This document shows positions 11,894-20,425 of a stretch of DNA of 35,000 nucleotides, one piece after another (position 1 is the first letter of the stretch; each line of letters starts with the position of its first letter). Origin of the DNA: Oceanospirillales bacterium (GTDB taxonomy: Bacteria; Pseudomonadota; Gammaproteobacteria; Xanthomonadales; SZUA-36); contig QIKG01000107.1 in assembly GCA_003232965.1 (NCBI GenBank), forward strand, positions 1 through 35,000. Reading direction: 5' to 3'. The notes under the pieces were generated by a model that did not search any database, was not told the origin of the DNA, and was given only the letters and a program-made list of their open reading frames with translations. The translations under genes were made by a program, and so were the position numbers.

Positions 11894-12664
11894 TCATTTC
11901 TTTTGTTGTTGCTTATATAAATCCAGTGCCTCGTCAAGCTCACCGTAAAAAATCATCTTACCTTTTGAGAGCACCAAGCCCTTGGTACACAGAGATTGCA
12001 TAAGGCTTGTGTTATGGGTGGCCAATACCAGCCCGCGACTACTCTCGACTAAGCCTTCCATACGCTGTTTTACCTTAGCCCTAAATTGCGTATCCCCAGC
12101 GCCTAGCCATTCATCAAGTAGTAATATATCCGGCTCGACTATGGTGGAAACTGAAAAGGCAAGGCGCATACGCATGCCGGTTGAATACGTATTTAACGGG
12201 TTATCAATGGCTTCGCTTAGTTCTGAAAAATCAACAATCCCTGGAACTAATTCCTTGATTTGCTTCAACTTCAAACCCATTTGCAGCCCGCGCATATAAA
12301 TGTTCTCTAGGCCGGTGGCTTCCTGGTTCATGCCGAGTGAAATTTCAAACATGCCTTTTGCTACCCCATTGACAGTCAGTTTTCCGGACGAAGGTTGGTA
12401 TATTCCAGCCAATACGCGCAGTAGCGTGCTTTTGCCAGCTCCATTAGCACCAATTAGCCCGAGGCGCTCGCCACGCTGAAGTTTAAAAGAAAGTTTATCA
12501 AGAATGGTGACAATTCCGCGCTTGGTTCGGGAGAAATAAAGGTCGGTCAAAAATCGTGACGGGTTGGATAGTAATTTGCGGTCGTTGGGCTGAAAAATTG
12601 GCACCTGCAGGGTGAGATTTTTAGCTTCAAGCAGTGGGCGTGGCTTTGGGGCATCGGTTTTCAT
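11894..12664 (-). CDS. ABC-2 polysaccharide exporter, ATP-binding subunit (Wzt/KpsT type)
   Basis: The 256-aa ATPase has Walker A GANGAGKST (72-80), the degenerate signature NTYSTGMRMRLAF typical of polysaccharide exporters, Walker B DILLLDEWLGAG (179-190) and the H-loop LATHNTS. An N-terminal segment of about 55 residues precedes the ABC core. The C-terminal carbohydrate-binding domain of O-antigen Wzt proteins is absent, so it resembles the KpsT/TagH class more. The frame is open upstream to 12829, but that part overlaps the permease gene. The ATG at 12664 lies 8 bases after the permease stop, showing tight coupling. It should power glycan export across the inner membrane. Confidence 0.9.
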   Translation of the reverse strand: MKTDAPKPRPLLEAKNLTLQVPIFQPNDRKLLSNPSRFLTDLYFSRTKRGIVTILDKLSFKLQRGERLGLIGANGAGKSTLLRVLAGIYQPSSGKLTVNGVAKGMFEISLGMNQEATGLENIYMRGLQMGLKLKQIKELVPGIVDFSELSEAIDNPLNTYSTGMRMRLAFSVSTIVEPDILLLDEWLGAGDTQFRAKVKQRMEGLVESSRGLVLATHNTSLMQSLCTKGLVLSKGKMIFYGELDEALDLYKQQQKK

Positions 12665-12672
12665 TGTGACAG

Positions 12673-13455
12673 TTAAACCCAAAGCGGAACATTGTGGGCA
12701 AAACGCTTGTAAAAGAAGTTTGCCAAGGTAAATCCGACGATCGTGATAGTAATTACCACTATCCAGCTTAAAGGAGCAATGGGGTTTCCGAGCAAAGGGG
12801 CGCGGATTAATTCCAAAAAATGATAGCAAGGGTTGTAGACCAAAAACGCACCCATAACACCACCTCGGCCGTCCGTGCCTGGCATCCAGATGATAGGGGT
12901 AGCAAGAAAAGCAATGCGCATAATTGCTTGTACAACCTCCGATAGGTCACGATAACGCGCACCGATCATGCCAAAAAACATGGAAAGCCAGATACCATTA
13001 GCGATGAGCAGGGCAAGGCCGATTAGGCTGACAAGGGAATAAAAAGAAACATCTATGCCAAAAATGATAAAAACGATGACGATAAGAATAATTTTATGTA
13101 GGAAATTGAGAACGGTTGTAAACACATTAATAATAACAATATCCACAAGGTTCAAGCCACCCTGTAATATTTGCGCTCGCCCTCGTTGAAATACTGTCGT
13201 GCTGCTGGTGATAAAGCCGGTGATTAGGGTCCAAGCGATCAGGCCGATGGCGAGATGGGGGATAAATACGGCTGGGTCATTGCCACCAATACGAGAAAAC
13301 AGCATGCCTAGTAAGGCGATAAACAATGCTGGACTAACCAAAAGCCAAATTGGCCCGAGCATAGTCCTGCGATAACTAATGAGGAATTGGAACCATGTAA
13401 TATAGGCATGGCGTCCAAAGCTATCAAAAGGATAAGTCAGGATAGTACGGAGCAC
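12673..13455 (-). CDS. ABC-2 polysaccharide exporter, permease subunit (Wzm/KpsM type)
   Basis: The 260-aa inner-membrane protein has about six hydrophobic segments and the ABC-2 type arrangement. An amphipathic N-terminal part (ITWFQFLISYRRTMLGPIW) is followed by membrane segments and the conserved late region IWMPGTDGRGG...YNPCYHFLELIRAPL. That pattern is characteristic of Wzm/KpsM/TagG permeases. It is immediately upstream of its ATPase partner. No outer-membrane export proteins (Wza/KpsD/KpsE) are encoded in the window, so the route past the periplasm is not shown here. Confidence 0.9.
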   Translation of the reverse strand: MLRTILTYPFDSFGRHAYITWFQFLISYRRTMLGPIWLLVSPALFIALLGMLFSRIGGNDPAVFIPHLAIGLIAWTLITGFITSSTTVFQRGRAQILQGGLNLVDIVIINVFTTVLNFLHKIILIVIVFIIFGIDVSFYSLVSLIGLALLIANGIWLSMFFGMIGARYRDLSEVVQAIMRIAFLATPIIWMPGTDGRGGVMGAFLVYNPCYHFLELIRAPLLGNPIAPLSWIVVITITIVGFTLANFFYKRFAHNVPLWV

Positions 13456-13492: not shown

Positions 13493-14692
13493 TCATGTTT
13501 TTTCTGCGATTATTCTACCGACCACTGGGTTATCGTCTTTATAAACAGCAAGACCTTTCTCTTCTACTGAAAATATCTCCATAAACCCAATGGCCTTAAT
13601 TCTTTTTCTAAGTAACTGAAAGTCGATAAACCTTCTATAGTGATCAGTGATTCTTTCATTTTTACCGAATACGAAACCGCTTTTCGCCAGAGGATCATTG
13701 ATTGTCCGGAACTCAATCATTATTCGACCGCCAGATGGCAACATGGAGTAGGCTCTACGGATGAACTTCTCTTGTGCATCTTCGCTCATCGCGTGCAGCA
13801 CAAACCGAGAGTACACTACATTAATTCCCATTGGCAAGTCCAATGAGAAATCTGAGAAATCTCCATTTATGAATTCAATTTGTGGGGTTTCATTTTGAGT
13901 TAATTGTATAGCAAAATTATTGTTATTTGTTACCGCTTCTAAAGATAAATCAATACCGACTATTTTATTTTTAGCATTAATATAAAAAGTATCCCTGCCG
14001 TCACCACATCCAACATCAATGATGTGATCCTCTTTTTTCAGATAATGCTCGTTACACCAAACTGCAAAAGGGCTGGGGCTTTTATTTCTTCTTGAATTCT
14101 TATAATACTTGTTCCAATAGGCCGTAACATCTTCCTTCAATTTCCCTTCCCACATATTACTATTAACTATACCTTTATCATCAATACTGGTTGAGAATAC
14201 TTTTTCCAGAATCAAAGTTGCCGCAGCCAAAGGCGTTGTATCCCCATGGTTGTTAATCACAAGGTCAGGGTTTTGGGGTAACTCATAGTCTTGCATATAA
14301 ACACTACTATCTGCATTTTGCTTTTCTTTATAACTGGTATACAATCCTTTCTGATCTCGCTTTTGGAGTACGCTCAACGGAACCTGTAAATATACTTCCA
14401 GGTAATCAGCGTTATTTTCTCTATTCCATCTACGCACATCCTCAAACATCGCCACTGTGGCACAAATCACGGTATTGCCCTCATCAGACAAAAATTGACA
14501 CAAGCGTGAATATACAAATCCCAAGTCCTTTCTTTCTTCTTTTTCATACCCCCACCTATTGCCAAATATTGTTCTCAAATTATCTCCATCTAAAACGATA
14601 TTCCTGATACTCAATAGTTGGAGTTTTTTAGACAGACTTTTAGCAATAGTAGTTTTGCCAGACCCTGAGAGCCCGGTGACCCATATTATCAT
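13493..14692 (-). CDS. Adenylylsulfate (APS) kinase-like domain fused to a SAM methyltransferase
   Basis: The 399-aa protein has two modules. Residues 1-170 resemble CysC: P-loop GLSGSGKTT (7-15), DGDNLR (35-40), GYEKEERK, then VYLQVPLSVLQKRDQKGLY. CysC phosphorylates adenylylsulfate to PAPS, the sulfate donor. Residues 190-399 are a class I SAM methyltransferase with IIDVGCGDGRD (224-234), GIDLS and a YSRFVLHAM segment after the fourth strand. It lies 35 bases downstream of a sulfotransferase gene, which supports PAPS supply for glycan sulfation. An alternative is a nucleotide-phosphoramidate kinase like Campylobacter Cj1415, which belongs to the same kinase family, but the other genes of that pathway are not seen here. 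Base composition is more AT-rich than in the flanking housekeeping genes. Confidence 0.82.
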   Translation of the reverse strand: MIIWVTGLSGSGKTTIAKSLSKKLQLLSIRNIVLDGDNLRTIFGNRWGYEKEERKDLGFVYSRLCQFLSDEGNTVICATVAMFEDVRRWNRENNADYLEVYLQVPLSVLQKRDQKGLYTSYKEKQNADSSVYMQDYELPQNPDLVINNHGDTTPLAAATLILEKVFSTSIDDKGIVNSNMWEGKLKEDVTAYWNKYYKNSRRNKSPSPFAVWCNEHYLKKEDHIIDVGCGDGRDTFYINAKNKIVGIDLSLEAVTNNNNFAIQLTQNETPQIEFINGDFSDFSLDLPMGINVVYSRFVLHAMSEDAQEKFIRRAYSMLPSGGRIMIEFRTINDPLAKSGFVFGKNERITDHYRRFIDFQLLRKRIKAIGFMEIFSVEEKGLAVYKDDNPVVGRIIAEKT

Positions 14693-14727
14693 AATGATTT
14701 CCTGCTCTAATTCCTACGGTTGGTGTG

Positions 14728-15615
14728 CTATTTAATATAATTGCCATTTTGCTCGCATTTTTCGCGATATTTTTCGATATCTTCCAGGTATGGCGCTCCT
14801 TGTAAGCTACGTAAAAACTTTTGTTTCTTAATTTCATAAAAAGCTATATCAAAGCCGATTAATTCTGAGATTTCTCGCTCTAATCCTCTTGGTATAGCAA
14901 CTGGTTTTGGTTTCGCGGTGTTTCGTTTGTCCAGCTCCCAAACAGGAGCTTGGTTGATCCCTATTTGGCTTAAAAATGATATAACTGACGCTTCAAACAG
15001 TTCACATATACCAAACCAGGAGATGTTGTTCGAAAAGTTTGCCTCCGCAACAGAAATCATTTCACCAATCGGTTTTTGGTCGATAATATGTGCAGTTTTA
15101 GTTGCTCTGTTGTCAAACGCAAATTGACGAACCTGCGCGTAAGTACGCCAATCTTGCCTTACCCAAGAGATGATATCTCGACCCATGATTTTCTCTGGAT
15201 GATGTGAGAGTAACCAGTAATATATAGAAAAAACCCTTTTCATTGGGTCGCGCAACATTGTGACACATTTAGCCCCAGGGTAGTTCTTTTCGTATCCGAA
15301 TAATCCGTGATCAATAAGAATAGGGTTGATTTCCAGTTTTTGTGAAAACTGGGCAAGCGCCTCTTCTCTTCCCGCAGGCATTTGCATATACCTACACATG
15401 AAACGCTTAATGTTTCCAGACTCTTTATAAGCCATATGAAGTGCTTTAGCGAAGGCCAAGCTACCACTTTTGTTAACACCATGGAATAAGATGGGAACAT
15501 TGTGAATAGTTGACTTCTCACTGGATGTGTTGATGCTATTAATGTTGTATATAGCCGGACGAACCAATGGTGTGTATGAGCCTGATGGTACTGCGTTTTT
15601 TGCTTTATTTATCAT
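14728..15615 (-). CDS. Sulfotransferase family protein
   Basis: The 295-aa protein carries a PAPS-binding arrangement. An early strand-loop (PILFHGVNKSGSLAFAKAL, about 42-60) matches the 5'-phosphosulfate loop, and CVTMLRDPMKRVFSIYYWLL matches the 3'-phosphate-binding motif (R-D-P-x-x-R). No signal peptide is seen, so it probably acts on the cytosolic face during glycan assembly. It lies between a methyltransferase and the APS-kinase fusion in one minus-strand run. The sugar acceptor is not predictable. The loop is a variant of the usual PKxGT form, so activity is inferred rather than certain. Confidence 0.75.
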   Translation of the reverse strand: MINKAKNAVPSGSYTPLVRPAIYNINSINTSSEKSTIHNVPILFHGVNKSGSLAFAKALHMAYKESGNIKRFMCRYMQMPAGREEALAQFSQKLEINPILIDHGLFGYEKNYPGAKCVTMLRDPMKRVFSIYYWLLSHHPEKIMGRDIISWVRQDWRTYAQVRQFAFDNRATKTAHIIDQKPIGEMISVAEANFSNNISWFGICELFEASVISFLSQIGINQAPVWELDKRNTAKPKPVAIPRGLEREISELIGFDIAFYEIKKQKFLRSLQGAPYLEDIEKYREKCEQNGNYIK

Positions 15616-15690
15616 TTCTCACCTAAATAGTTAACAATTTTTAGTTTCGGCAGTTCTCCATCGTTAACGAGACCACAATTATGGAAACTA

Positions 15691-16563
15691 TTATTTTTTT
15701 CCAAAGATAGCGCGACAGAAATTCGGCTCGATTCCACCAGTTTCAATAAGAAATCTATCAATTTCCCACATTTCTTTTATAAATCTCATGTCATGTTCAG
15801 CATTTGTGTAATTCTGTGCAAACCCGTTAAATATTGGAAACAATACCCCGCAGAGAAAATAATGAGATTTCAAATCTAAATATTCAGTAAGAGCAGGCCA
15901 AATTGCATCTGACCTGATTGCCTCAAAGGGCGACATATTTTCCTTACACGGTATGGGTACGTTTTTGAATACTTTACCCGAATGATTAGTTCTCAATCTT
16001 TCTGGCATTGTTCTCCAGATACGCTCAGCGAGATGCAATTGTTTTTCAGTTCGCTGCAAGAACGGGCGCCCAATATAGTCGATAAGTACAAATATCCCAT
16101 CCGACTTAAGTGACTTATTAATTTCTTGTGCAACATACTCGACCTCAATCAGGTGATGGTATGCTTGCTGGATGAATATTAAGTCGTATTTTTCTTCGGG
16201 CAACACAATCTCATTGACATCGCAGATTTGGTAATTCACATTGATCGATTTATCGTAGTCACTTTGAAGAAATTTTTTCCTTTGTCCTTCACTTATATCA
16301 TAGGCGTCAATGGAGGTCGCACCTCGTGCTTTCAGGTATGCAAATTCTCCAGTCATCATTCCGCAAGCAAGACTCAAAGAAGTTATATTTTGTTTGCCGG
16401 ATAATAGATGATCTACCGAGGTAGTGATATTATATTCCTGATGAATTTGTTGCTGAAAATAGGGGATCGCACCCCAACTAACTGAGCGCGTAAGTTGGTT
16501 ATTAGCTTCGCCGAAAAACTCTGCCTCTGCTTGAAGTTTGTTCTTAAATTTACCTTTTAACAT
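15691..16563 (-). CDS. SAM-dependent methyltransferase of the glycan cluster
   Basis: The 290-aa protein shows a Rossmann-type methyltransferase core. SLSLACGMMTGEFAYLKARG serves as motif I, followed by IDAYDISEGQRKK and CDVNEIVLPEEKYDLIFIQQ. The QQAYHHL stretch after motif IV is common in small-molecule and sugar methyltransferases. The C-terminal half (about 160-290) is less conserved and may bind the acceptor. It could methylate a sugar or the glycan end; methylation is used to cap some ABC-exported O-antigens. The target is inferred only from context. Confidence 0.75.
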   Translation of the reverse strand: MLKGKFKNKLQAEAEFFGEANNQLTRSVSWGAIPYFQQQIHQEYNITTSVDHLLSGKQNITSLSLACGMMTGEFAYLKARGATSIDAYDISEGQRKKFLQSDYDKSINVNYQICDVNEIVLPEEKYDLIFIQQAYHHLIEVEYVAQEINKSLKSDGIFVLIDYIGRPFLQRTEKQLHLAERIWRTMPERLRTNHSGKVFKNVPIPCKENMSPFEAIRSDAIWPALTEYLDLKSHYFLCGVLFPIFNGFAQNYTNAEHDMRFIKEMWEIDRFLIETGGIEPNFCRAIFGKK

Positions 16564-16665
16564 CTAGCATTACTCACACTATTTCCCTCTGTCTATATCG
16601 AAACCATTGAAGTGTCCCATGGTCATTCTCATAAAACTTCCTACACCATGGTGCCATATTATATA

Positions 16666-19600
16666 TCACTCAATTGCAATAGCTTGTTTGTAATCTAATG
16701 TGCTGTAAAGCGCCTTTCGTCTGATACTTCGAATCGTGCTCAGAATTGATGCGGCAGAAGCTTCTTCAGCGATAAAACCCAAACTATAATCTTTTACACG
16801 TTCCGCCGGTGCGCCTAAATCAAAACATATCAGTGGTATGTTTAACTGCATTAATTCCTGAGTCACATATGAGAATGTTTCTGGCCAGATAGATGGTAAA
16901 ACACAGATGTTAATCCCATACTGGTAGATTAGTTCGGGAAGTTCACTGTGACGATATGAGCCATGAACAATAAAATTCGGTAGCTCACAGGCATATTGTG
17001 GATTGATTTTACCCAATAATACAATTTTCGCTGCGGGCTCACTTTTACTTAATTCCTGGGCTAAGTCGATAACAATTTTAGCACCTTTAGAAAGGTTTAG
17101 GTTGCCCACAACACCGATGACTAGACGGTCTGTTTGCGGGGCTGGGTCCAAAGGTTGAAAGTCTTTCAGAGGCTGGTGTGGCTTTACCGATGTTTTTTCC
17201 GAATCAAGCGGCCATGCGCGTGCGGCAATATCAAGACTCGCTTGTGAGAAACACACGATTTTGTGCGCCTTGGACAAAAGGTCACCCCATGTCTTACGCC
17301 ACTCGATCATACTCACACTGTTTAGTTCAGAATTTTTATTTTTCCTCAGGCATCGCCCGCATTCTTCAATATTTTCAGGCACATAGCAATAATTATCGTT
17401 ATCATTAAGTAGTGTGTAGGAGGGGCAAATAGCATAGTAATCATGAAATAATATTTTGATTTTCAATTTAACATTCTCACTAAACCTTGAAATTGTATGC
17501 ACAATTTCTAAAGGTTCAGGCCAGCCCACAATATTGCTAATAACGATATCTGCTCGGTCTATTCTGCCAAGTAGTTTGCCTATCCAGTTGATATCAGCGA
17601 AGTTAAACAGTGCTTTGGCATGGTCAAATTCGACTTGCAACCTAAAGCACATATTGCCTGCGTCATATGTGAGTAAGATTATAGGCCGTCCACTATCTAA
17701 TGTTTCCTGCACCAATCGTGCCCGGTAAGCATTAGCACCCCCCCCTAAGGCATGGTCTAAAACAAAGAGTGGATTATTTACACAGCAAAGGTGCAAAGTT
17801 ATAGACTCTCGTAGAACTCGCCATTTATCTATATTGATAAATTTTTCAACTGAGCTTTTATACTCAGGCCATCGTGAATTAATTAACGATAGATGTTTTC
17901 TAATTAATGCTTGTTTTTCTTCTGCCGAAAACGAGCCTCCATGTTTGTGATACACATACAGATTGGGAACTAAATTGTTTCTATATCCGCTTGCTATGGC
18001 TCGTTGACACCAATCATTTTCCTCTCCATATCCCTTGCCAAATGCCGCCTCGTCAAAGCCGCCGATTTTATCCCAAACCTGACGGTTTATACCCATACAA
18101 AAACCAACTCCAGTGGGTGCGTCGAGTTCTATATTTGTTTGTATTTGTAGTTGCTTGAAAGAGTGATCTATTTCCTTAACTGATAATCCAGCGACTATTG
18201 AACTATCTTGAGGGAATTCTGGGTAGCTGAAAATTGTTGCGGCATTCGAAAACGGAGTGGTCGAGGCGATGGTAGGATCCTTTATGATAGGAAACATCAA
18301 GCGTTCAAGCCAGTCTGGAGGAACAATAGTATCAGAGTTTAATATTACAAAGTTATTGGTATCACCTTTCGCCGCTTTATTTACAGTTTTCACAAAGCCT
18401 ATATTGTTGTCATTGTTTAGCACCTGAATCTGTTTATTATTACGCTCGTATATATCCAATAGGGGTTTGACCCCGGCGTCGGTACTAGAATCGTTTACCA
18501 ATAGTATTTTGTGTTTAGGGTCAGTGTTTTTAACGAGCGAGGGAAGTAGTTCCTCCAAATGCATAACGCCGTTGTATATAGGTACCAGAATAGTAATTGA
18601 CTCAGTTAGCTCTGGTACGGAAACGGGGGTTTTCGAAATTAGATCCAATGTACCCTTCAGAGGCGTGCCTAAGATGTGTATAGGCTGATTATTTGAAGGT
18701 TTTAATCCCTCTGCGGGTAGCGGTGATCGTCCTTCAACTTTCCCAAAACGCAAATAATGCAACAATGGGTTCTGCCTGGAAGAAAACACATCAGGATATT
18801 GCTGATAATACCAGTTGGAATCAAATGCTTTTGATGGGCTCCTTCCTTCATTGCCTCCATAATCTATATAATGATCAAGCAATTCTCTATGGTTTTTATT
18901 TGCCAAGTCCGCATTGTTGTTTCGATAGTAATCCTTGTCAAACATGTTGGATTTGCTAACTAATCTTCTTGTGCGTAAAACTACAATCTTGTTATGAAAT
19001 AGTTTAAATGCGCCTAGCAGCGCGTTGATTACAGAATGTTGGCTTATTTTTTTGACCAAAAGTGTCACTCGCCAAGACCTCGAACTTTCTATCGCATAGA
19101 GCCGTTCTTCGGAAAGAAGTAATTCGTCTTTTACGCCCAATATCTCCTTGTCACAGATATGTGTCTGCTCTTCAAGCTCACTGACCCTCCCTTGGGCTTG
19201 TTCAAAGCGTTTCTCAAACTTACTTGCTTTCTCTTTGGCGCTCGCCAATTTTTTATTTAATTTTGTTGTTTCTAACTCTTTTTCATACAGTTTAGTATCC
19301 AGTTTCTTGGACTTGGCTACTGCTTTTTTTATTTTTGCTCTGAGGCTACCAACCTCGTTTTTGTATTTGACTAGCTTAGTGTCCAAGCCAACAAATTCGC
19401 CATCCCGCTCCTTTCGCACCTCAGCATAAAGTCTGCTCATAATCGGACTCGCATTGCTGAATTCCGAGTCAATTTTGTCAAGCCTGGCAATAGCCTGCCT
19501 GGAACCTGGGTTGCGTGTGAGTATAAGCAATGCCTCATAGGCTCCCCCAACCCAGTCACACAGCATAGGGTCAAGCAGAACATCCTCGGTGTTGTAAAAG

Positions 19601-20337
19601 TGGTGACGATGGCTCGAAGAGAGAAACTCTTCTACCTGTGGGGCGATTTCTTTAATCGTGTGCCATCCCTCGACATCAAGTTGTTCGCTAATCTTGGAAA
19701 TACTAGCCTGCCAGTTCTCAAGGAAGTGATAATATGTGAGGATAGCGCGGTTTTGGTTACGCGTGGCTTTCTCTGCATCTAATACATGTCGCAGCCAGAG
19801 CAGAACGGCATCGACGCGTTTCATACCGTTTCGCGCCTCAAGCGACTCACATACCTCGAGCGGATTACGGAAGGTGAGAACGGGGAAAACATTTATACCC
19901 CCTTCGCGCAACAGTTCCATGAAAAATGGTGCGAAGCGACAGATGCGAGGGTCTTTGATAACAAACAGAGCGGTAGCACCATAATCGGCAACAATAATTT
20001 CGTGTATTTCTTGTTTAATTTCTTTACGTCGTTTGACGGGAAGGCGGCTTATATCTAGTGGTTGCCAGTCGTCCCACGAACTACTTAACTCAGTTAGCAG
20101 ACTATCATGATATTTAACAAGGTCTGCCGGCTCCCAATGTCCGGCTTCATTGCTTGTGTTCGGGCCAACTAGGTTTTGTGGTAGTTTTGCGCCGGCGATG
20201 CCAAGCACGCGTGTTAGTGCTGAGGTGCCTGAACGATGCATACCAAGAGCCAGTAAGCAGGTAGGTTTTCCCTCATGTGCTTTCCTAACAGCTTTGATTT
20301 TGGTTATTTTGCTTATCTTTGTATCTTGTTCAGGCAT
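16666..20337 (-). CDS. Large multidomain sulfotransferase / coiled-coil / GT2 / GT4 glycan synthesis protein
   Basis: This 1223-aa protein appears to combine four parts. Residues 25-275 are sulfotransferase-like, with LLALGMHRSGTSALTRVLG as the PAPS loop and FPVLTFRNPLEVCESL as the second site. Residues 300-425 are a Lys/Glu-rich coiled coil. Residues 460-535 hold two copies of a short motif, FDKDYYRNNNADL and FDSNWYYQQYPDV, each followed by a GxxEGRSP-type turn. Residues 578-800 are a family 2 glycosyltransferase (ITILVPIYNG, LNSDT, GYGEENDWC). Residues 845-1215 resemble GT4 (GVVGNLNLSKGA, LPSIWPETFSYVTQELM). The frame is open to 20352 from a TTG, but ATG 20337 follows GGTGGG and is preferred. 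It heads the minus-strand cluster, 102 bases before the methyltransferase gene. Confidence 0.85.
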   Translation of the reverse strand: MPEQDTKISKITKIKAVRKAHEGKPTCLLALGMHRSGTSALTRVLGIAGAKLPQNLVGPNTSNEAGHWEPADLVKYHDSLLTELSSSWDDWQPLDISRLPVKRRKEIKQEIHEIIVADYGATALFVIKDPRICRFAPFFMELLREGGINVFPVLTFRNPLEVCESLEARNGMKRVDAVLLWLRHVLDAEKATRNQNRAILTYYHFLENWQASISKISEQLDVEGWHTIKEIAPQVEEFLSSSHRHHFYNTEDVLLDPMLCDWVGGAYEALLILTRNPGSRQAIARLDKIDSEFSNASPIMSRLYAEVRKERDGEFVGLDTKLVKYKNEVGSLRAKIKKAVAKSKKLDTKLYEKELETTKLNKKLASAKEKASKFEKRFEQAQGRVSELEEQTHICDKEILGVKDELLLSEERLYAIESSRSWRVTLLVKKISQHSVINALLGAFKLFHNKIVVLRTRRLVSKSNMFDKDYYRNNNADLANKNHRELLDHYIDYGGNEGRSPSKAFDSNWYYQQYPDVFSSRQNPLLHYLRFGKVEGRSPLPAEGLKPSNNQPIHILGTPLKGTLDLISKTPVSVPELTESITILVPIYNGVMHLEELLPSLVKNTDPKHKILLVNDSSTDAGVKPLLDIYERNNKQIQVLNNDNNIGFVKTVNKAAKGDTNNFVILNSDTIVPPDWLERLMFPIIKDPTIASTTPFSNAATIFSYPEFPQDSSIVAGLSVKEIDHSFKQLQIQTNIELDAPTGVGFCMGINRQVWDKIGGFDEAAFGKGYGEENDWCQRAIASGYRNNLVPNLYVYHKHGGSFSAEEKQALIRKHLSLINSRWPEYKSSVEKFINIDKWRVLRESITLHLCCVNNPLFVLDHALGGGANAYRARLVQETLDSGRPIILLTYDAGNMCFRLQVEFDHAKALFNFADINWIGKLLGRIDRADIVISNIVGWPEPLEIVHTISRFSENVKLKIKILFHDYYAICPSYTLLNDNDNYCYVPENIEECGRCLRKNKNSELNSVSMIEWRKTWGDLLSKAHKIVCFSQASLDIAARAWPLDSEKTSVKPHQPLKDFQPLDPAPQTDRLVIGVVGNLNLSKGAKIVIDLAQELSKSEPAAKIVLLGKINPQYACELPNFIVHGSYRHSELPELIYQYGINICVLPSIWPETFSYVTQELMQLNIPLICFDLGAPAERVKDYSLGFIAEEASAASILSTIRSIRRKALYSTLDYKQAIAIE

Positions 20338-20425
20338 ATAATACCCACCCAAACCTATATAAAATAGACATACTAACTCTTAATTTCCGCATGGAAGCGT
20401 GACTATAACACAAGCTCTTGACGCA

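Follow-up and report, generated by a model that had tools for sequence, protein, structure and literature searches.

A kinase-methyltransferase fusion that probably builds a methylated phosphate-type decoration of a surface polysaccharide

The fusion protein and its locus

A gene in a bacterial polysaccharide locus joins an APS-kinase-like domain to a SAM-dependent methyltransferase (MT), which raises the question of what the kinase phosphorylates and what the methyltransferase methylates. It lies within a 35,000-nucleotide stretch of contig QIKG01000107.1 from an Oceanospirillales bacterium, the whole of which is called the window here, occupies positions 13493-14692 on the minus strand and encodes 399 aa from an ATG start with zero internal stops. 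The kinase domain (14195..14692, minus strand, aa 1-166) matches Pfam PF01583 (APS_kinase, aa 2-147, E 1.4e-30) and NCBIfam NF004041. A linker modelled with low confidence (14144..14194, minus strand, about aa 167-183; pLDDT <50 at 173-191) connects it to a class I SAM methyltransferase domain (13493..14143, minus strand, aa ~184-399 plus stop), which was detected by Pfam (aa 219-327, E 4e-12) and by a family HMM built here. The P-loop GLSGSGKTT, the DGD motif and the SAM motif GCGDGRD are unbroken. An AlphaFold2 model of the fusion (37 sequences; mean pLDDT 79.7) contains both folds, with good confidence in the kinase part and the C-terminal MT part, and Foldseek matched it to APS kinases and class I MTases separately. 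A chimeric assembly was ruled out as origin of the fusion, since the same architecture is present in three further genomes. The fusion is real and forms one intact ORF, as claimed in an earlier sequence-only reading, which had described an intact CysC-family P-loop kinase continuous with an intact methyltransferase.

The glycan-tailoring role proposed in that reading agrees with the surrounding genes, which are all encoded on the minus strand. These comprise a Wzm-type ABC exporter permease (12673..13455; NF050109, E 6.6e-53, below cut-off; PF01061) and a Wzt-type ATPase of 256 aa from a likely internal start (11894..12664; NF050108, E 4.4e-63, below cut-off; PF00005), which is too short to hold the C-terminal carbohydrate-binding domain. 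Directly upstream of the fusion lies a sulfotransferase-like protein, our candidate transferase (14728..15615), and further upstream a second class I methyltransferase (15691..16563; Pfam Methyltransf_11, E 2.6e-11) and a 1228-aa glycosyltransferase with coiled coil, GT2 and GT4 regions (16666..20352; PF00535, PF00534 and coiled-coil models), the N-terminus of which is possibly sulfotransferase-like (Sulfotransfer_3 only at E 0.15). The GC content is 0.38-0.41 at window positions 13500-19500 and 0.45-0.52 in the flanks; this low-GC region is likely an acquired glycan island. The candidate transferase is weakly assigned as a sulfotransferase: its Sulfotransfer_3 match is sub-threshold (E 0.032), its single-sequence model was uninformative (pLDDT 39), and tblastn retrieved 'sulfotransferase family 2' proteins at E 1e-6 and 8e-4, the latter adjoining a phosphoramidate-type cluster in A. 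ramasamyi.

Affiliation of the kinase domain

We compared the kinase residues of the fusions with those of 24 CysNC proteins and 86 relatives; in this set and in the tree, which took in three of the four fusions, the APS-kinase side is represented by CysNC, and stand-alone CysC enzymes are absent. The fusions have kept neither the CysNC invariants N57, P82, K120 and R122 nor the FTGI loop. Positions 57, 82, 120, 122 and 129-132 of the APS site, invariant or near-invariant in the 24 CysNC, are replaced in them. Retained are the cluster-kinase features V-A-M-F/Y and C65, T79 in three of four fusions, and the arginines at 40 and 54, which bind the anionic acceptor in APS kinase. An acceptor-loop glycine common to APS kinases and cluster kinases is missing from the fusions. 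In the tree the fusions form one group (support 100/84) nested among the cluster kinases (branch 96/87), and the CysNC clade is separate at 100/100 and contains no fusion. The tree gives good support for placing the fusion kinase in the cluster-kinase (CDP-amidate-kinase-type) clade. With 154-157 bits it exceeds the cut-off (127) of the NCBIfam model PRK05541/NF004041, 'adenylyl-sulfate kinase', and is the only kinase of its genome to do so; two other fusions score 116.6 and 125 bits, under the cut-off. A separate CysNC is encoded on contig C52 of the same genome.

The closest stand-alone kinases, from Azospirillum plasmids and a deltaproteobacterium, adjoin a PEP-utilising enzyme, a gamma-glutamyl hydrolase and a phosphocholine-cytidylyltransferase-like protein. 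When species genomes were scanned with one kinase motif, which biases the sample towards the cluster-kinase group, glutamine-kinase-, amidohydrolase- (CDP-amidate-hydrolase-) and cytidylyltransferase-like genes occurred together at 62 of 80 kinase loci, 59 loci having a methyltransferase as well. Among NCBIfam models the cluster amidohydrolase best matches gamma-glutamyl-CDP-amidate hydrolase, with E 1.4e-30 and a score below the cut-off. The cluster enzymes presumably correspond to Cj1418, Cj1417 and Cj1416, and by gene content the clusters appear to be of the Campylobacter CDP-phosphoramidate pathway type. Sulfotransferase-type genes lie directly upstream of several cluster kinases, and in L135 the two genes overlap at their ends; a sulfotransferase-type match was obtained for 5 of the 37 upstream neighbours. 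At its N-terminus the A. lipoferum kinase is extended by a long segment that appears sulfotransferase-like by eye, without a Pfam sulfotransferase match, and the A. ramasamyi kinase has an extension of similar length.

Most sampled PRK05541 members (L050-L129) stand in CDP-amidate-type clusters; the hosts include Pseudomonadota, Acidobacteriota, Bacillota, Planctomycetota, an archaeon and others, and for this large group the name 'adenylyl-sulfate kinase' looks wrong. Kinase and glutamine-kinase-like enzyme form one protein of ~1000 aa in L052, L060, L062, L065, L067-L073, L080, L083, L087 and L088.

The window's genome encodes a glutamine-kinase (GlnK) homologue (E 5e-66) on contig C231, the gene running off the contig end, and a cytidylyltransferase homologue (E 3e-45) on C200, next to a sulfotransferase and an MT of the type usual in phosphoramidate clusters. 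The fusion is unlinked to these genes. The corresponding locus of the sister genome G152, in which the fusion is absent, reads GlnK (internal deletion)-GGH-MT-CT-sulfotransferase and has no kinase; the fusion could therefore supply the kinase absent from the GlnK cluster. A GGH in the window's genome is predicted solely from synteny with G152. In a same-genus genome (L150, 3236-4310) an internal deletion breaks the glutamine-kinase gene, and the sulfotransferase ORF is shortened too. Among 39 genomes of the family, such a kinase is present in 5 of the 6 with intact GlnK (G007 has GlnK and no such kinase) and in 0 of the 33 without it (p 1e-5, the fusion counted).

Fusion proteins in other genomes

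A survey for the same fusion, as the sequence-only reading had suggested, found full-length proteins of the same domain order in three further genomes. Two belong to the Pseudomonas group (L059 and L063; 90% alike; kinase 47-48%, MT 40-41% relative to the window's protein) and the third to a distant complete genome of 4.7 Mb (G1068, L188; kinase 51%, MT 38%). The fusion is rare, with 2 carriers in 400 Pseudomonas-group genomes and, in a phylum-wide sample of 399 genomes, the window's own genome and one other; none was found in viral contigs scanned with a single protein. Gene contexts differ from lineage to lineage. The Pseudomonas operon consists of a hexapeptide acyltransferase, a Glyphos_transf gene and the fusion, beside rfbF/G/H-like CDP-sugar genes; in G1068 the TPR protein after the fusion matches Sulfotransfer_3 (E 2e-5). 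Cytidylyltransferase-like matches in L059 and L063 (31%) resemble RfbF and were set aside.

GlnK was not detected in the fusion carriers G664, G665 and G1068, the last a complete genome; the same search did show it in two genomes with stand-alone kinases. CDP-amidate can hardly be the substrate of every fusion, because these three genomes have no detectable glutamine kinase. Acceptor-site positions, too, are different in the fusions of these genomes, and both observations together suggest either that several CDP-linked phosphoryl compounds serve as substrates or that the fusions have left the phosphoramidate pathway.

The methyltransferase family

The MT of the fusion is not the usual MT of phosphoramidate clusters, as two family HMMs barely cross-match, and its family has no clear member in the sampled phosphoramidate clusters. 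In 18 of 25 viral contigs, some of them near-identical, a member adjoins or is fused with a LicD-family protein. Phage S-CAM7 encodes the MT followed by LicD, Shinella a LicD-MT fusion, and in the LicD-MT fusions of L036, L169 and L174 the phosphoryl-transfer domain comes first, followed by the MT. In three genomes a CDP-glycerol-phosphotransferase-like gene follows the MT (scoring against PF04464 covered the L133 copy alone), and such a gene precedes the fusion in Pseudomonas. That the family is repeatedly paired with phosphoryl-transfer proteins whose folds are unrelated suggests a phosphoryl group as the methylation target of the MT, as in WbdD. The family has invariant basic residues, which are only suggestive of phosphate-specific activity.

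Pairs or fusions of a LicD-family protein with this MT family occur mostly in phages (L156-L176; L036, 11098-12309; L033, 7983-9082). L132, L133 and L134 share an operon of methyltransferase, CDP-glycerol-phosphotransferase-like protein and YidC-like membrane protein.

Proposed function

Judged from its sequence, the fusion probably builds a methylated phosphate-type decoration of a surface polysaccharide, since its kinase is related to phosphoramidate-type kinases and relatives of its MT adjoin phosphate-transfer enzymes. Our preferred reading, tentative and at somewhat less than an even chance, is a bifunctional enzyme that tailors the donor of an O-methylated phosphoryl decoration. The N-terminal kinase would act on a CDP-activated phosphoryl compound and phosphorylate one of its hydroxyls, judging by homology the ribose 3'-OH; in the window's genome this compound would most likely be CDP-phosphoramidate from the glutamine-kinase/amidohydrolase/cytidylyltransferase cluster elsewhere in that genome. 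The C-terminal MT would O-methylate the phosphoryl group, the product being a PAPS-like 3'-phosphonucleotide that bears this group, and the neighbouring sulfotransferase-fold protein would transfer it onto the polysaccharide exported by Wzm/Wzt. Alongside the observed fusion, kinase clade, residue differences and gene contexts, we infer all substrates, the order of the steps and the transferase of this scheme. A more specific form is unlikely: here the fusion would make 3'-phospho-CDP with O-methyl phosphoramidate from CDP-phosphoramidate, the unassigned methylation step, and sulfotransferase-fold proteins would be phosphoramidate transferases acting on the PAPS-like donor.

Donor-level tailoring is preferred because of the kinase ancestry, the retained anionic-acceptor arginines, the pathway in the own genome and the sulfotransferase-type neighbours. 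It is weakened by the fusion carriers lacking detected GlnK (G664, G665, G1068) and the lost acceptor-loop glycine, by the absence of the fusion's MT family from the sampled phosphoramidate clusters, the own cluster already having the usual MT, and by the missing linkage of the fusion to that GlnK cluster, the GGH known from the sister only and the weakly assigned sulfotransferase of the window.

The main rival is a serious one, if somewhat unlikely. As in WbdD, the kinase would phosphorylate a sugar hydroxyl of the glycan, e.g. at its end, and the MT would convert this phosphate to a methyl phosphate, making phosphoramidate unnecessary. WbdD does so for an ABC-exported O-antigen, with its MT acting on phosphate (PMC3482155). 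The layout of the three LicD-MT fusions, the invariant basic residues of the MT, the changed acceptor loop in all fusions and the undetected GlnK in three fusion genomes fit this mechanism, whereas the close relatives of the kinase are all cluster kinases of a nucleotide pathway, the acceptor-site arginines are retained, a GlnK cluster is present in the own genome and the Wzt is too short to perform an export check of the WbdD/Wzt type.

Very improbable is PAPS synthesis for the neighbouring sulfotransferases, one of the roles offered by the sequence-only reading, with the MT an unrelated passenger. Although Pfam and NCBIfam name the kinase an APS kinase, its fold is of this type and sulfotransferase-like genes are close by, PAPS synthesis by it is not supported: it groups with the phosphoramidate-cluster kinases outside the CysNC clade, the APS-kinase invariants and the FTGI loop are lost by comparison with CysNC, not stand-alone CysC, and a CysNC is encoded separately in the genome. 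Through this grouping and the lost invariants, the refuting check that the sequence-only reading had itself named speaks against its PAPS role. It is also doubtful that the kinase has some other small molecule or nucleotide-sugar from glycan synthesis as its substrate and that the MT acts on a separate sugar position. The Pseudomonas operon near CDP-sugar genes and the contexts varying between lineages point in this direction, but the fusion is kept in distant lineages and its MT family is repeatedly joined to phosphoryl-transfer enzymes, which suggests coupled chemistry. The second role in the sequence-only reading, a kinase for another nucleotide with methylation of the product, fits best, although glutamine kinase was undetectable in three of the four fusion genomes.

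Comparison with known systems

The fusion is a new combination of parts already known. Cj1415 of the C. jejuni MeOPN pathway, a cytidine diphosphoramidate kinase, is a separate protein; the window kinase presumably belongs to the same group, and its relatives adjoin Cj1416-, Cj1417- and Cj1418-like enzymes. It differs from Cj1415 in being fused to an MT, and most fusions occur without glutamine kinase. With CysC and CysNC it shares the fold, the P-loop and the DGD motif, but the APS-site invariants are lost and its clade is separate from CysNC. The LicD-MT pairs of phages and Shinella have the same MT family as C-terminal partner of a phosphoryl-transfer domain, with a LicD nucleotidyltransferase fold at the N-terminus where the fusion has a P-loop kinase. 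WbdD of E. coli O9a likewise combines kinase and MT in one protein of an ABC-exported polysaccharide locus, but there the MT precedes a kinase of eukaryotic-type fold and a coiled coil lies at the C-terminus (PMC3482155), whereas the fusion starts with a P-loop kinase of the APS-kinase fold, ends in the MT domain and has no coiled coil.

Of the known MeOPN genes, Cj1415-1418 and the transferases Cj1421/1422, none is assigned to the methylation step, and Cj1419 and Cj1420 have no assigned function, their knockouts having changed nothing (PMC11800397, PMC3907429). With a kinase of presumably the Cj1415 group and a methyltransferase in one protein, the fusion is a concrete candidate for an enzyme that couples phosphorylation to methylation. 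Our survey also suggests sulfotransferase-fold proteins as phosphoramidate transferases; in the literature searched we found no paper linking phosphoramidate and sulfotransferases in Campylobacter capsules. In L098, L102, L105 and L139, two different cluster-type methyltransferases are adjacent, recalling Cj1419/Cj1420.
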